The notes below the pieces were generated by a model. That model worked only from the letters and a program-made list of their open reading frames with translations. It made no database searches and was not told the DNA's origin. This document shows, in pieces, positions 15,667-19,478 of a DNA stretch of 39,113 bases. The stretch's first letter is position 1, and every line of letters starts with the position of its first letter. Position numbers and translations under genes: made by a program. The stretch comes from Salinivirgaceae bacterium (GTDB lineage Bacteria; Bacteroidota; Bacteroidia; Bacteroidales; SZUA-534), in contig JAQICC010000089.1 in the NCBI GenBank assembly GCA_027858735.1, forward strand, positions 1 to 39,113, written 5' to 3'.

Positions 15667-16440
15667 CTATTCTATCATTATTTTTCGTGAAATAACCCGT
15701 TTACCTTGTAATATTTGAAGTATAAATGGGCCTAAACCATGCTCTTTTAATTGGATGTTTCTACTGTACTCACTATTAAAATCTCTTAACTTTTCTTCAA
15801 AAACCACTTGTCCTACCATATTGCTTATTTTCACGCTTGTATTTCCAGGTTCCGAAAGCTTAAAGTTTACATGAATACCATCGGTTGTTGGATTTGGGTA
15901 AAACTTTACAAATTCAAATTCAGGTTCTTTTATTCCTGATTTTAATGCTTTACTTTTAAATCCATTTATGTCATTTTCTGTCAATTCATCAAGTACAATG
16001 CGGGTTTGCACTATTATTACTTTATTACCGTTCTCATCTTCAATAACATCAAGCAAGCTATCTACATTTTTAATATCATGTTCTTTGTTAATAAAAACCA
16101 TCTCGCCTTTGCGTTCTATTTTAATGTGTTCTCCATCATCTCCAATAAAAATTAGATCATTTTCAAGGCCATCAAGCATAACTTCAATTTTCTTATCAAT
16201 TGAATCTTCCAAGCCGTCAATGTCGCCAAATTCTTCAATTCTTTCCATCTTTCCATCTTCCAATATTTGAATGGTTTTTACAATTACCTCAATAGAATTA
16301 TCATCCGGCTTTATCTGTTTCTTAACTTTAATTACTTTTACATCTTCCGATATACTTTGCCCATAAGCATAACTACCCAAAAAACTGGCAATTAAAATTA
16401 CTAAGATAATCACAGGTGCAAAAAGGTAGTTTTGTTTCAT
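15667..16440 (-). CDS. Secreted protein with T9SS type A sorting domain
   Basis: The 257-aa protein begins with a signal peptide (hydrophobic 8-27, cleavage near SYAYGQ). The middle (about 30-170) is acidic and charge-rich, with repeated beta-like phrases (KVIIVQTRIVLDELTEND) and no family I recognise. The last 80 residues form a type IX secretion C-terminal domain: FVKFYPNPTTDG, VKISNMVGQVVFEEKL, and a final VISRKIMIE. The protein is thus expected to cross the outer membrane by T9SS and be released or attached to the surface. It faces the RprX-like kinase gene across a shared control region and probably has a long structured 5' leader. Function unknown; a regulated stress or envelope role is inference. 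Confidence 0.8.
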   Translation of the reverse strand: MKQNYLFAPVIILVILIASFLGSYAYGQSISEDVKVIKVKKQIKPDDNSIEVIVKTIQILEDGKMERIEEFGDIDGLEDSIDKKIEVMLDGLENDLIFIGDDGEHIKIERKGEMVFINKEHDIKNVDSLLDVIEDENGNKVIIVQTRIVLDELTENDINGFKSKALKSGIKEPEFEFVKFYPNPTTDGIHVNFKLSEPGNTSVKISNMVGQVVFEEKLRDFNSEYSRNIQLKEHGLGPFILQILQGKRVISRKIMIE

Positions 16441-16504
16441 ATTAAAAATATTTTATGGGTTTAATAATATGACTTTTAGAAAATCCCAATAACTCGTTAT
16501 ACTT

Positions 16505-16551
16505 GTTTGATAAGTATTCAGTTAACTAGCTAAACTGATACTTTATCAAGC
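16505..16551. repeat. Inverted repeat in the T9SS gene leader
   Basis: The arm at 16505-16524 (core TTGATAAGTAT, CAGTT) pairs with 16531-16551 with only single-base bulges, around a 6-base loop ACTAGC. If transcribed leftwards it would form a hairpin of about 20 bp some 65 bases before the T9SS gene ATG. It lacks a T run on the minus strand, so a terminator is not obvious; an RNA regulatory element or protein-binding palindrome is possible. Confidence 0.6.
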
Positions 16552-16642
16552 TTCGAAAGCCTTGTTCTTGGAATTTTCTTTTAAGTCTCTTTCATGACAT
16601 GCGGATTATACTATTCTATTAAATCATTTTTTTTTCAACATT

Positions 16643-16721
16643 GTTAGCATTGAAAGATGAAATTTAAAAACTGCGCTTTTAAAAAGTTTTTAAAATTTCA
16701 TCTCTATTTTCAATGCATAAC
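16643..16721. repeat. Long imperfect inverted repeat in divergent control region
   Basis: The arm 16643-16672 (GTTA, GCATTGAAA, GATGAAATTT, AAAAACT) pairs with 16685-16721, with a one-base bulge, a short unpaired stretch (about 16703-16707) and a two-base bulge. The inner stem alone is 17 bp, around a 12-base loop. No ORF is inside. It could be a folded leader element of the minus transcript or a small MITE-like insertion; no clear target duplication was found. Confidence 0.6.
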
Positions 16722-16786
16722 ATACAACAACTATTTATTAAAGCCTAGTTAACTATGAAGAAAAGACTAACTTAAACTTGATGGAA

Positions 16787-16794
16787 CAAATGTA
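16787..16794 (-). promoter_or_regulatory. Putative -7 box for the T9SS protein gene
   Basis: CAAATGTA here reads TACATTTG on the minus strand, an exact match to the Bacteroidota TAnnTTTG box. No good -33 TTG lies upstream of it; instead the GTTAA array begins 23 bases upstream, as expected for an activator-dependent promoter. Transcription would start near 16780, giving a leader of about 340 nt. Confidence 0.45.
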
Positions 16795-16814
16795 GGGAAC
16801 TAATGATAACCATT

Positions 16815-16866
16815 TGGTTAAGGGCCGGTTAAAAACTGTTAAGGTTAGGTTAAAATAAGTTAAAGC
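16815..16866 (+). promoter_or_regulatory. Phased GTTAA direct-repeat array, likely response-regulator site
   Basis: GTTAA occurs at 16817, 16828, 16838, 16849 and 16859: five direct repeats at 11, 10, 11 and 10 bp, one per DNA turn, mostly preceded by G. This is the arrangement OmpR/PhoB-family regulators bind. The last unit lies at the -33 position of the kinase promoter (-7 at 16881) and the first 23 bases from the opposite -7 box at 16794. I infer that the adjacent RprY-like regulator binds here and controls both directions. Confidence 0.65.
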
Positions 16867-16880
16867 TTCAATTCTTTTTA

Positions 16881-16888
16881 TACTTTTG
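16881..16888 (+). promoter_or_regulatory. Putative -7 box for the histidine kinase gene
   Basis: TACTTTTG matches TAnnTTTG exactly. The -33 region is occupied by the last GTTAA repeat rather than a TTG, consistent with activation by a bound regulator. Start of transcription would be about 70 bases before the ATG at 16964. Confidence 0.5.
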
Positions 16889-16963
16889 ACTTGAATACAA
16901 AGTTATAATGATGGTAAAACCTTTAAAAATTACTGTTATTAACTTGATACTTTTTACTAAAAG

Positions 16964-18601
16964 ATGAATAAACAAAAATTTACAGGCATCATATTATTAA
17001 TGGCATTATCGCTTCTAGGCATTATTGCAGTTCAAATTTATTGGATGAATAAATCCATTACCATAAAAGAAGAACAATTTGACCAACAGGTAAGCGAAGC
17101 CCTTGCAAGAGCCTCATACCGAATTGAGCGGAACCAAAATGCCAATTTTATGTCAAATATGTTTAGGGGAATGCCGCAGGTTCAAATGCGCCAATTTATT
17201 AATCCACAGGTAGGTAATGTTGGCAACGATTCTGTATTTATCGAATTTAGCCAGTTTTGGCAAGACAATGAGCCAAAGGTTCATGTAATAAATGGCGATA
17301 AAAATATTAATGTGCAAAAAAATGCAAAAGACGGGCTCGAAACTATAAAATATACTTTTGATACAGTAATAGATGATGGGTATGGCAAGCAACATATTCA
17401 AACATATTCGCAAGTAACCCAACCAACACAAGAACAGGTAGTAGTTATGCCAAATGAAAAAGGTAGTACTGATGAATTGCTTGATAAACCAAAGGAAAGT
17501 CAGCTAAATCAAGTGATGGAGCAAATGGTACTAGAATTTTCAATTCGCGATATACCCATGGAGGAAAGATTAAGCAACTCCATTATTGCGCCAACAATTG
17601 AGTATGAGTTTAAAAATGCAAGCATTCCGTTGAAATTTGAATATGGCATTACTAATTATCAGGGTAATTACTACAAAAAACTAAATACTCGAGGCTTTAA
17701 TCAAGAAAATGCTAAAAAAGCCTATAAAACTACGCTTTTTCCTAACGATATTTTAATGCAAAGCGATCAGTTAGTATTATACTTTCCTAACAAACGCAAT
17801 TACTTAGTAAACAACTTAATATGGCCATTTACCGGTTCATTAATCTTCACCCTTATTATTTTGTTTACCTTCTATTTTACACTTAGAATTATTTATAACC
17901 AAAAGAAAACATCGGAAGTTAAAACCGATTTTATAAATAACATGACGCATGAGTTTAAGACACCCATCGCAACAATCTCACTAGCAGCTGATTCAATATC
18001 TAATCCTACCATTCTTAATGTTCCTGAAAAGGTTATTCGATTTATAGATATAATAAAAGAAGAAAACCGTAGAATGAACCGACAAGTTGAAAGTGTATTG
18101 AAAATGGCTTTGATTGACAAAAAAGATTTTAATTTAAATATGGTGGATACTGCAGTTCATCCACTAATTGAACTTGCTGTTAAGAACATTAGCTTACAAG
18201 TTGAGCAAAAAGGAGGTAAAATAAAACTTGATATCCAAGCAGAGAATGATCACCTAAGAATTGATGAAACTCACTTTGCCAATCTTATTTATAACCTGCT
18301 TGATAATGCTAATAAATATGCCTTAAATGCTCCACCCGAAATAACAGTTTCTACTTATAATCAAAATAGCGATTTTTGTTTGGCTATTTCCGACAACGGC
18401 ATAGGAATGAGCAAGGATGCCCAAGAAAAAATATTTGAAAAATTTTACCGAGTACCAACGGGTAATGTGCATACCGTGAAAGGTTTTGGACTGGGCTTAA
18501 GCTATGTGAAAGCAATTGTAATGCAATTTAAGGGTGATATACTCGTAAACAGTCAAAAAGACAAAGGAAGTACCTTTACCATTAAAATACCGCTTAAGTA
18601 G
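16964..18601 (+). CDS. rprX: Sensor histidine kinase, RprX-like
   Basis: The 545-aa protein has an N-terminal membrane helix (about 7-27), a periplasmic sensor region (about 28-283) rich in Gln and Asn with no recognised domain, and a second helix (about 284-308). The cytoplasmic core follows: phospho-acceptor H329 in MTHEFKTPIATISL, N-box LIYNLLDNANKYA (about 441), G1 ISDNGIGMS and G2 GFGLGLSYVK. Layout and partner resemble Bacteroides RprX, and the adjacent regulator is clearly RprY-like. The likely role is sensing an envelope or periplasmic signal and phosphorylating that regulator. The gene symbol is by similarity recalled from the family, not by alignment. A 178-base gap separates it from the regulator gene. 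Confidence 0.88.
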   Translation: MNKQKFTGIILLMALSLLGIIAVQIYWMNKSITIKEEQFDQQVSEALARASYRIERNQNANFMSNMFRGMPQVQMRQFINPQVGNVGNDSVFIEFSQFWQDNEPKVHVINGDKNINVQKNAKDGLETIKYTFDTVIDDGYGKQHIQTYSQVTQPTQEQVVVMPNEKGSTDELLDKPKESQLNQVMEQMVLEFSIRDIPMEERLSNSIIAPTIEYEFKNASIPLKFEYGITNYQGNYYKKLNTRGFNQENAKKAYKTTLFPNDILMQSDQLVLYFPNKRNYLVNNLIWPFTGSLIFTLIILFTFYFTLRIIYNQKKTSEVKTDFINNMTHEFKTPIATISLAADSISNPTILNVPEKVIRFIDIIKEENRRMNRQVESVLKMALIDKKDFNLNMVDTAVHPLIELAVKNISLQVEQKGGKIKLDIQAENDHLRIDETHFANLIYNLLDNANKYALNAPPEITVSTYNQNSDFCLAISDNGIGMSKDAQEKIFEKFYRVPTGNVHTVKGFGLGLSYVKAIVMQFKGDILVNSQKDKGSTFTIKIPLK

Positions 18602-18779
18602 CTGTAAAATTTAATTAGATTCTAAAATTCATATACTGAAACATATTAGTAAAAAAAGTATTCGGTTTTCGGTAATCAATATTTAATGATCAATTATAGT
18701 ATGTTTAAATTTAATTTAACTTAGAGTCTTAAAGAGATCGTAATCTGTGAATTAGTGACCATAAAAAAAAATAAAACCT

Positions 18780-19478
18780 CTGAGAAATCAAAAAATATTT
18801 TTAGTTGAAGATGACCTGAACTTTGGATCAGTTATGAAATCGTACCTTGAAATGAATAATTTTGAAGTAGATTGGGTTAATAATGGTAAAGATGCAGTAA
18901 GTACATTTACAAAAGGAGTTTACGATTTATGTGTTTTAGATGTTATGCTACCTCATGTTGATGGTTTTACCATTGGTACTGAAATAAAAAAGTTAAAACC
19001 TAATGCCCCTATTGTATTTTTAACCGCCAAAACGCTTAAGGAGGATATGATTAAAGGCTTTAGTGTGGGTGCCGACGATTATATTACCAAACCTTTTGAC
19101 AGTGATGTGCTTATCTATAAAATAAAAGCCATTTTAAAGCGTAATCAATCAGGTATGGATGCTCCGGCCGATGGCGAGATACTTGAAATAGGCAAATTTA
19201 AATTCGATTACAAAACAAGAAATTTGAGCTCTGACGATTGCGAATCCGTAAAACTTTCTCCAAAAGAAGGCGAACTTCTCCTCCATCTAATTCAAAACAA
19301 GAATAAAGTTCTTGACCGAAATTTTGCCCTTGAAAAAATTTGGGGCGAACAAGGCTACTTCGTTGCTCGTAGCATGGATGTTTATATTACCAAACTACGA
19401 AAATTCTTGAAAAGCGATTCTAATTTAGAAATAGTAAATATTCATGGTAGTGGGTACATATTGAAAGAGAATGTATAG
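18780..19478 (+). CDS. rprY: OmpR-family response regulator, RprY-like, probable CTG start
   Basis: The first ATG in frame (18834) would remove the start of the receiver domain, including the acidic pair. Upstream codons from CTG 18780 read RNQKIFLVEDDLNFGSV, the normal first strand and acidic pocket; an in-frame stop lies at 18762 and no ATG, GTG or TTG occurs between. With CTG as start the protein is 232 aa and the phospho-acceptor is D54 (LCVLDVMLP), the standard position. Other marks: IVFLTAKTLKEDM, GADDYITKPF, and a winged-helix DNA-binding domain with FALEKIW, ARSMDVYITKLRKFL and NIHGSGY, very like RprY. CTG precisely where ATG is expected, after an A-rich leader, suggests a rare start codon or a recent mutation. 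It likely binds the GTTAA array upstream of the kinase gene. Confidence 0.85.
   Translation: MRNQKIFLVEDDLNFGSVMKSYLEMNNFEVDWVNNGKDAVSTFTKGVYDLCVLDVMLPHVDGFTIGTEIKKLKPNAPIVFLTAKTLKEDMIKGFSVGADDYITKPFDSDVLIYKIKAILKRNQSGMDAPADGEILEIGKFKFDYKTRNLSSDDCESVKLSPKEGELLLHLIQNKNKVLDRNFALEKIWGEQGYFVARSMDVYITKLRKFLKSDSNLEIVNIHGSGYILKENV

Follow-up and report, generated by a model that had tools for sequence, protein, structure and literature searches.

Five phased GTTAA repeats were found between two outward-facing promoters in the window, by which we mean the whole stretch of DNA analyzed here (39,113 nucleotides). Taken as a whole, the locus is probably best explained by an activator site for two dimers of an RprY-like regulator, which would fire both promoters. 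The features were as follows.

15667..16440, minus strand: divergent exported protein of 257 aa with a type IX secretion (T9SS) C-terminal sorting domain
16441..16786, minus strand: leader between the left promoter and the T9SS gene, about 340 nt, with no covariance-model match in its own genome
16642..16722, minus strand: imperfect inverted repeat (hairpin) in the leader, without a U-tract
16787..16794, minus strand: left -7 box TACATTTG of the divergent promoter, without a -33 TTTG
16817..16863, plus strand: GTTAA array of five repeats, a proposed tandem-dimer binding site, conserved upstream of the kinase in relatives
16881..16888, plus strand: right -7 box TACTTTTG of the kinase promoter, without a -33 TTTG
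16964..18601, plus strand: sensor histidine kinase of 545 aa (HisKA, HATPase_c)
18780..19478, plus strand: OmpR-family response regulator (receiver and Trans_reg_C), with RprY as its best NCBIfam match, below the cut-off

Phasing and conservation of the GTTAA array

The five repeats lie on the same strand and start at 16817, 16828, 16838, 16849, and 16859, with steps of 11-10-11-10 bp. The initial annotation had described them in this way, and the description held, also against shuffled sequences. In 1000 dinucleotide-preserving shuffles of the whole window, the longest chain with 10/11-bp steps had two repeats; among 20,000 shuffles of the local 264 bp the maximum was three, reached once. The observed array had five. 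No second chain of at least three GTTAA with this stepping was found elsewhere in the window. Phased repeats (at least three) occurred at five places in the whole 6.0-Mb genome versus none for the reversed pattern, and the three-repeat pattern gave 111 matches in 20 family genomes versus seven. The spacer around the array was AT-rich by eye, as would suit an effect of chance or composition. However, the shuffles never attained a five-repeat array, and distant relatives with diverged spacers kept an identical repeat spacing. Based on the shuffles and the conservation, a chance or composition origin was rejected, and we regard its probability as negligible.

The array showed two traits of operators of the OmpR/PhoB type, direct repeats one helical turn apart (11-10-11-10) and a constant placement directly upstream of the target's -7/-35 region. 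The PhoP box of B. subtilis is similar to GTTAA repeats. A Pho box was considered and set aside; the genes beside the genome's other arrays appeared to include no obvious phosphate gene.

Four or five phased repeats were present at the kinase in 17 of the 18 family loci with a full orthologue (the window and 17 relatives). The initial annotation had regarded loss of the array in close relatives as evidence against its reading. Such a loss was seen in G001, where locus L030 had the kinase and regulator without the array at the kinase, and in none of the 16 others. No full kinase orthologue was found in the family genomes G011 and G017. Among the 80 named loci (the best 80 of 588), at least two phased repeats lay within 400 bp upstream in 68 and at least three in 25. 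Judged from these loci, the array layout is kept across much of the phylum.

Promoter boxes at fixed distances from the array

The Bacteroidota sigma-ABfr promoter consensus consists of a -7 box, TAnnTTTG, and a -33 box, TTTG. The -7 box was found at 16881 and at 16787. The right box (TACTTTTG) lies 17 bp past the fifth repeat and 27 bp past the fourth, and 22 bp separate the left box (TACATTTG) from the leftmost repeat. A -33 TTTG was sought at both window promoters and was absent. In related loci it was likewise lacking from 67 of 68 right promoters and 39 of 41 left ones. The outward-facing boxes without good -33 elements noted initially were thus confirmed, and the absence proved to be general among related loci. 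A sigma-70 scan gave 18 hits versus 20 expected. The TAnnTTTG scan, which covered 16441-16963, also gave a third box unmentioned in the initial annotation, TAACTTTG (minus strand, 16898-16905), which sits on the kinase side and reads leftward through the array.

The geometry was measured in 103 loci, 24 from the kinase search in family genomes and 79 named ones (from the best 80 of 588). L032, L033, L034, L037, L041, and L042 were left out because their matches start away from the kinase start, and L043 because its DNA contains that of L023. The array was lacking in 15 of the 103 loci, among them incomplete ones and ones truncated at a contig end. In 63 loci the right TAnnTTTG came 26, 27, or 28 bp past the last repeat, and in the five loci with a fifth repeat it came 17 or 18 bp past it; it was thus at fixed distances in 68 of the 88 array loci, and a strict box at these distances was missing in 20. 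In 40 loci the left box was 21-24 bp away from the first repeat (exactly 22 in 30), and in two, both with three repeats, it was 33 bp away. It was present in 41 of the 48 loci spanning at least three repeat positions (missing in seven) versus one of the 40 with two, counts that come from loci related by descent and so are not independent events. Many of the two-repeat loci were recorded as Flavobacteriaceae or Saprospiraceae. Repeat number and left promoter were thus linked.

An array upstream of the -7 box at a fixed distance, with no -33 box, is the usual anatomy of activated promoters. The missing -33 boxes and the fixed distances were therefore as expected of activator-dependent promoters. 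These two features speak against a regulator that represses both promoters from the array, a reading for which the known relative offers a precedent: according to PMC3646045, RprY of P. gingivalis binds its own promoter, and the authors propose it as a possible repressor. We consider repression of both promoters unlikely.

Activation from a tandem site would probably proceed as follows. The array would bind the phosphorylated RprY-like regulator encoded behind the kinase. The four core repeats (11-10-11) would seat two adjacent dimers on the same helix face, and the fifth would be an addition on the kinase side in the window and some relatives. The bound regulator would replace the missing -33 contact and activate both the right promoter, of the kinase and regulator, and the left divergent one. 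The left transcript would be a T9SS mRNA in the window and a short noncoding RNA in several relatives.

The adjacent regulator and its paralogues

A kinase gene lies beside an OmpR-family regulator gene, as in RprXY, and a relative of the regulator was encoded downstream of the kinase in 95 of the 103 loci. The regulator scored 247 bits against NCBIfam RprY (NF051850), which was still its best family match and did not reach the cut-off of 370. With the extended frame it scored 266 bits, also below 370 and the highest in the whole genome; the RprY-like paralogues on contigs C204 (254 bits) and C397 (235 bits) did not exceed the cut-off either. An OmpR-family, RprY-like regulator next to the array had been proposed initially. 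Membership of the OmpR family and RprY as the best match were upheld, and the 370-bit score was not attained. By these scores the label RprY-like stands, and identity as RprY is not supported at the cut-off. The regulator frame contained no ATG, GTG, or TTG start at window positions 18750-18834, where relatives have ATG. A CTG at 18780 aligned with the start codon of the relatives and may be a rare start or an assembly error.

For each of the three best RprY-family pairs in the genome, GTTAA repeats at an 11-bp step preceded the kinase. In the C204 and C397 pairs, GTTAA-N6-GTTAA lay upstream of the kinases, and in C397 a -7-like box was seen by eye 28 bp past the GTTAA pair. This bears on the possibility that the array is used by another OmpR-family regulator (the C204 or C397 paralogue, or PhoB) and is a shared node instead of an element of autoregulation. 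The paralogues scored near the window regulator against RprY, and their kinases also carry such boxes. Against this, the array usually accompanied this particular kinase-regulator pair (array in 88 and regulator in 95 of the 103 loci), and the paralogues carry GTTAA boxes of their own, as expected if each autoregulates. We judged the shared node unlikely and retained the adjacent regulator as the probable ligand.

The paralogous pair at C204:10640-10780 of G000 (L011, L250) had a triple array besides its own GTTAA pair. Facing the triple array were a small, divergent cysteine-rich protein and an ORF of 823 aa in which Pfam gave carboxypeptidase-regulatory-like domains, a two-way layout as in the window.

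The divergent T9SS protein and its leader

The divergent protein carries a C-terminal Por_Secre_tail of T9SS type A (Pfam 1.3e-9; TIGR04183 38.1 bits, cut-off 23). A T9SS protein was divergent in five of the 17 array-bearing family loci (the window, G009, G007, G002, and G004). We tested 45 divergent ORFs, family members included, and 30 belonged to one HMM family (worst E 1.3e-12) in an unfiltered search of highly charged proteins, whose composition may add to the scores. The remaining 15 gave E of 0.055 or more, or no match. Of the 30 family proteins, 28 sat in loci spanning at least three repeats, which supported the exported divergent protein of the initial annotation. By eye, the T9SS tail was not present at every C-terminus.

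The left transcript of the window is most likely the mRNA of the T9SS protein with a long structured leader. The first part of the leader aligned by eye with the leader conserved among relatives; in other relatives this conserved leader forms the body of the predicted RNA. A second imperfect inverted repeat was found at 16507-16549. The inverted repeat at 16642-16722 was considered as a mobile element, and this was rejected because no second copy was found in the genome.

The T9SS output is made uncertain by the length of the leader (about 340 nt) and its strong hairpin. These same traits would fit a left promoter whose main product is a short regulatory RNA, the T9SS gene then being transcribed separately or through read-through. 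Terminator-like RNAs at exactly this promoter in twelve family relatives point the same way, as does a UUUUCUUCAUAG stretch in the leader, which by eye resembles the RNA core. However, the window hairpin has no U-tract and no terminator was found there, the covariance model for the RNA gave nothing in the window's genome, and 16787 is the sole TAnnTTTG facing the T9SS gene left of the array. A mainly short RNA in the window therefore seemed improbable, and we kept the mRNA as the most likely transcript.

A predicted small RNA at the left promoter in relatives

The T9SS protein was not seen in the flank examined at 12 family array loci (G005, G006, and ten of genus g4). At these loci a left box exactly 22 bp from the array led to a terminator-like hairpin. 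The automatic terminator rule accepted nine of the 12 and missed L022, L023, and L025, which have a poor U-tract. In G008, the flank was about 1 kb and an unrelated divergent ORF starts farther left. Genus g4 had 13 further four-repeat arrays with a left box at 22 bp, each with a putative RNA of this kind. Among the 25 RNA-promoter boxes, 20 matched TAnnTTTG and five read TACTTTTA. The 25 putative RNAs were 85-137 nt long, with the end chosen by eye, and had no common ORF.

We aligned 19 RNAs, omitting the near-duplicates G015a and G018b and the divergent G005a, G012b, G014b, and G016b. UCAUAA and AGUUGCU were invariant in all 19. In 86.2 percent of cells, two helices drawn from one member gave standard pairs. 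Both sides were changed in 42 helix cells versus 18 in shuffles (0 of 500 shuffles reached 42). The number of pairs with a double change was not above shuffles (142/500), and further pair types were fewer than in shuffles (485/500). RNAalifold alone recovered only part of the two-helix structure. By these comparisons, the terminator of the predicted structure was well supported and the first hairpin moderately so.

A covariance model gave 20 strong matches in the 20 family genomes (E 5e-22 to 3e-13). All were in g4 at four-repeat arrays, and 18 of them were among the sequences used to build the model. A first pass, which scored 150 candidates per genome, gave no strong copy away from an array. 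The G006 copy, also in the model, scored 0.008, and weaker matches from 0.016 upward lay away from known arrays. The window's genome gave no match. At the Rfam gathering score, no RNA match was found in eight loci apart from two tRNAs, and none in the window; a known RNA family was thus rejected. Outside the family, a terminator-like hairpin followed the left promoter in L035, L047, and L080, three loci in which we saw no gene for a divergent protein. L071 had a weak one inside coding sequence, and L065, L099, L104, and L113, also loci without a divergent gene, had none. These comparisons suggest that the left promoter in some relatives probably switches on small RNAs instead of a secreted protein. 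The single surface-protein output of the initial annotation was thus too narrow, since five of 17 family loci had the T9SS protein and 12 the predicted terminator-like noncoding RNA.

An extra array with a small RNA was also observed beside a large kinase-like ORF at L175 (G012:C42) and L176 (G014:C77:11500-19500). From their layout these appear to be duplicated RNA units; the kinase-regulator pair was not in view.

A candidate role of the RNA

The antisense of the RNA core resembled a translation start. With at most three mismatches, it gave 12 matches in six g4 genomes, seven of which were the RNA genes. Four of the other five lay exactly at start codons: those of a TonB-plug receptor (the same gene in two genomes, Pfam being run on one copy), a surface protein resembling BT_3987, and a lipoprotein-like ORF that had no match in Pfam. 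The count itself was not enriched (five non-self matches versus four for the reversed-pattern control in the six genomes). In a duplex test, both cores on average paired more strongly with putatively exported starts than with other starts. The test covered 305 ORFs in about 400 kb of G003, with a crude signal-peptide rule. The bias in mean energy lay beyond 100 of 100 mononucleotide shuffles, with p=0.018 and p=0.057 in the direct comparisons. For each core, starts pairing at -9 kcal/mol or lower made up a slightly smaller fraction of the exported genes than of the others. The best duplex match of one core was discarded as an artefact ORF over the RNA gene itself. For RNA targeting, the position of the matches at start codons is suggestive only.

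A tentative reading, which we consider possible and somewhat doubtful, is that the outer half of the array is a module that turns the kinase promoter into a two-way one, with an exchangeable output. In g4, the multi-copy RNA core would be antisense to the starts of exported or outer-membrane mRNAs, and a kinase that may sense the envelope would turn down the synthesis of envelope proteins. If true, the module would give a secreted-protein output in many lineages and a small RNA in Salinivirgaceae relatives.

Arrays at moxR and other genes

An array was found before moxR in 18 of the 20 family genomes, G000 included (L177-L184, L188, L190, L301-L306, L308, and L309). This was a second point on which a single surface-protein output failed. 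The moxR arrays had four repeats at 11-10-10 or 11-11-10 bp, with three repeats in G006 and two places in G019. In G017, an array was present and the adjoining gene was unconfirmed as moxR; no moxR-type array was found in G015. The genes at the G000 moxR array were AAA_3/bpMoxR, DUF58, and BatA (Pfam). Taken together, the neighbors of the other arrays in the window's genome (G000) were this moxR with DUF58 and BatA, a TPR protein, an ABC-type ATPase (Pfam), and the C204 pair.

Outside the family the moxR array was rare. It occurred in four of the 30 best loci from 60 genomes of the order, two of the four being in-family, and two of the 30 loci had less than 70 bp upstream before the contig end. 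A wider target across the order was therefore rejected, and the moxR array looks like a family trait, which within one family connects moxR and the bat genes with the system. G001 (L139, L188) had no array at the kinase and one at moxR, indicating that self-control and target control can part.

Discussion

The analysis offers a testable operator rule for RprY-like systems of Bacteroidota, in which two GTTAA repeats would mean control of the kinase alone and four a two-way switch. It also offers a candidate family of small RNAs controlled by a two-component system; to our knowledge, such circuits are little known in Bacteroidota. OmrA and OmrB are sibling small RNAs controlled by OmpR. By analogy, RNA copies would here be driven by a response regulator and are proposed to touch mRNAs of exported proteins. 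Unlike OmrA/OmrB, each copy here has its own array, one is divergent to the kinase, and the RNA is predicted.

MasB of Bacteroides thetaiotaomicron, as described in PMC10994844, is likewise an intergenic RNA of about 100 nt in a Bacteroidota, ours being predicted. It is reported to be activated by Cur, which is a system other than this kinase-regulator pair. RprXY of Bacteroides fragilis and RprY of P. gingivalis provide the best family match of the window regulator, with a score that stays under the NCBIfam cut-off. Neither PMC3646045 nor PMC6032018 uses the words motif, consensus, or binding site in its main text. No operator sequence for RprY-like systems was found in the literature searched, mostly papers outside subscription. 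The titles and abstract openings of work on RprY, Bacteroidetes GTTAA repeats, and RprXY small RNAs do not describe the array or the RNA.

The closest likeness in the site itself was to SaeR, an OmpR-family regulator of Staphylococcus aureus. According to PMC5083920, SaeR binds GTTAAN6GTTAA, with a half-site and 11-bp spacing identical to those of the window array, and belongs to a kinase-regulator system with secreted-protein targets. In contrast to SaeR, the present array belongs to a different phylum and joins two pairs through a 10-bp step, flanked by divergent promoters with Bacteroidota -7 boxes. Compared in this way, the array appears to be a conserved tandem operator of a known type whose arrangement is new and whose divergent output can be exchanged.
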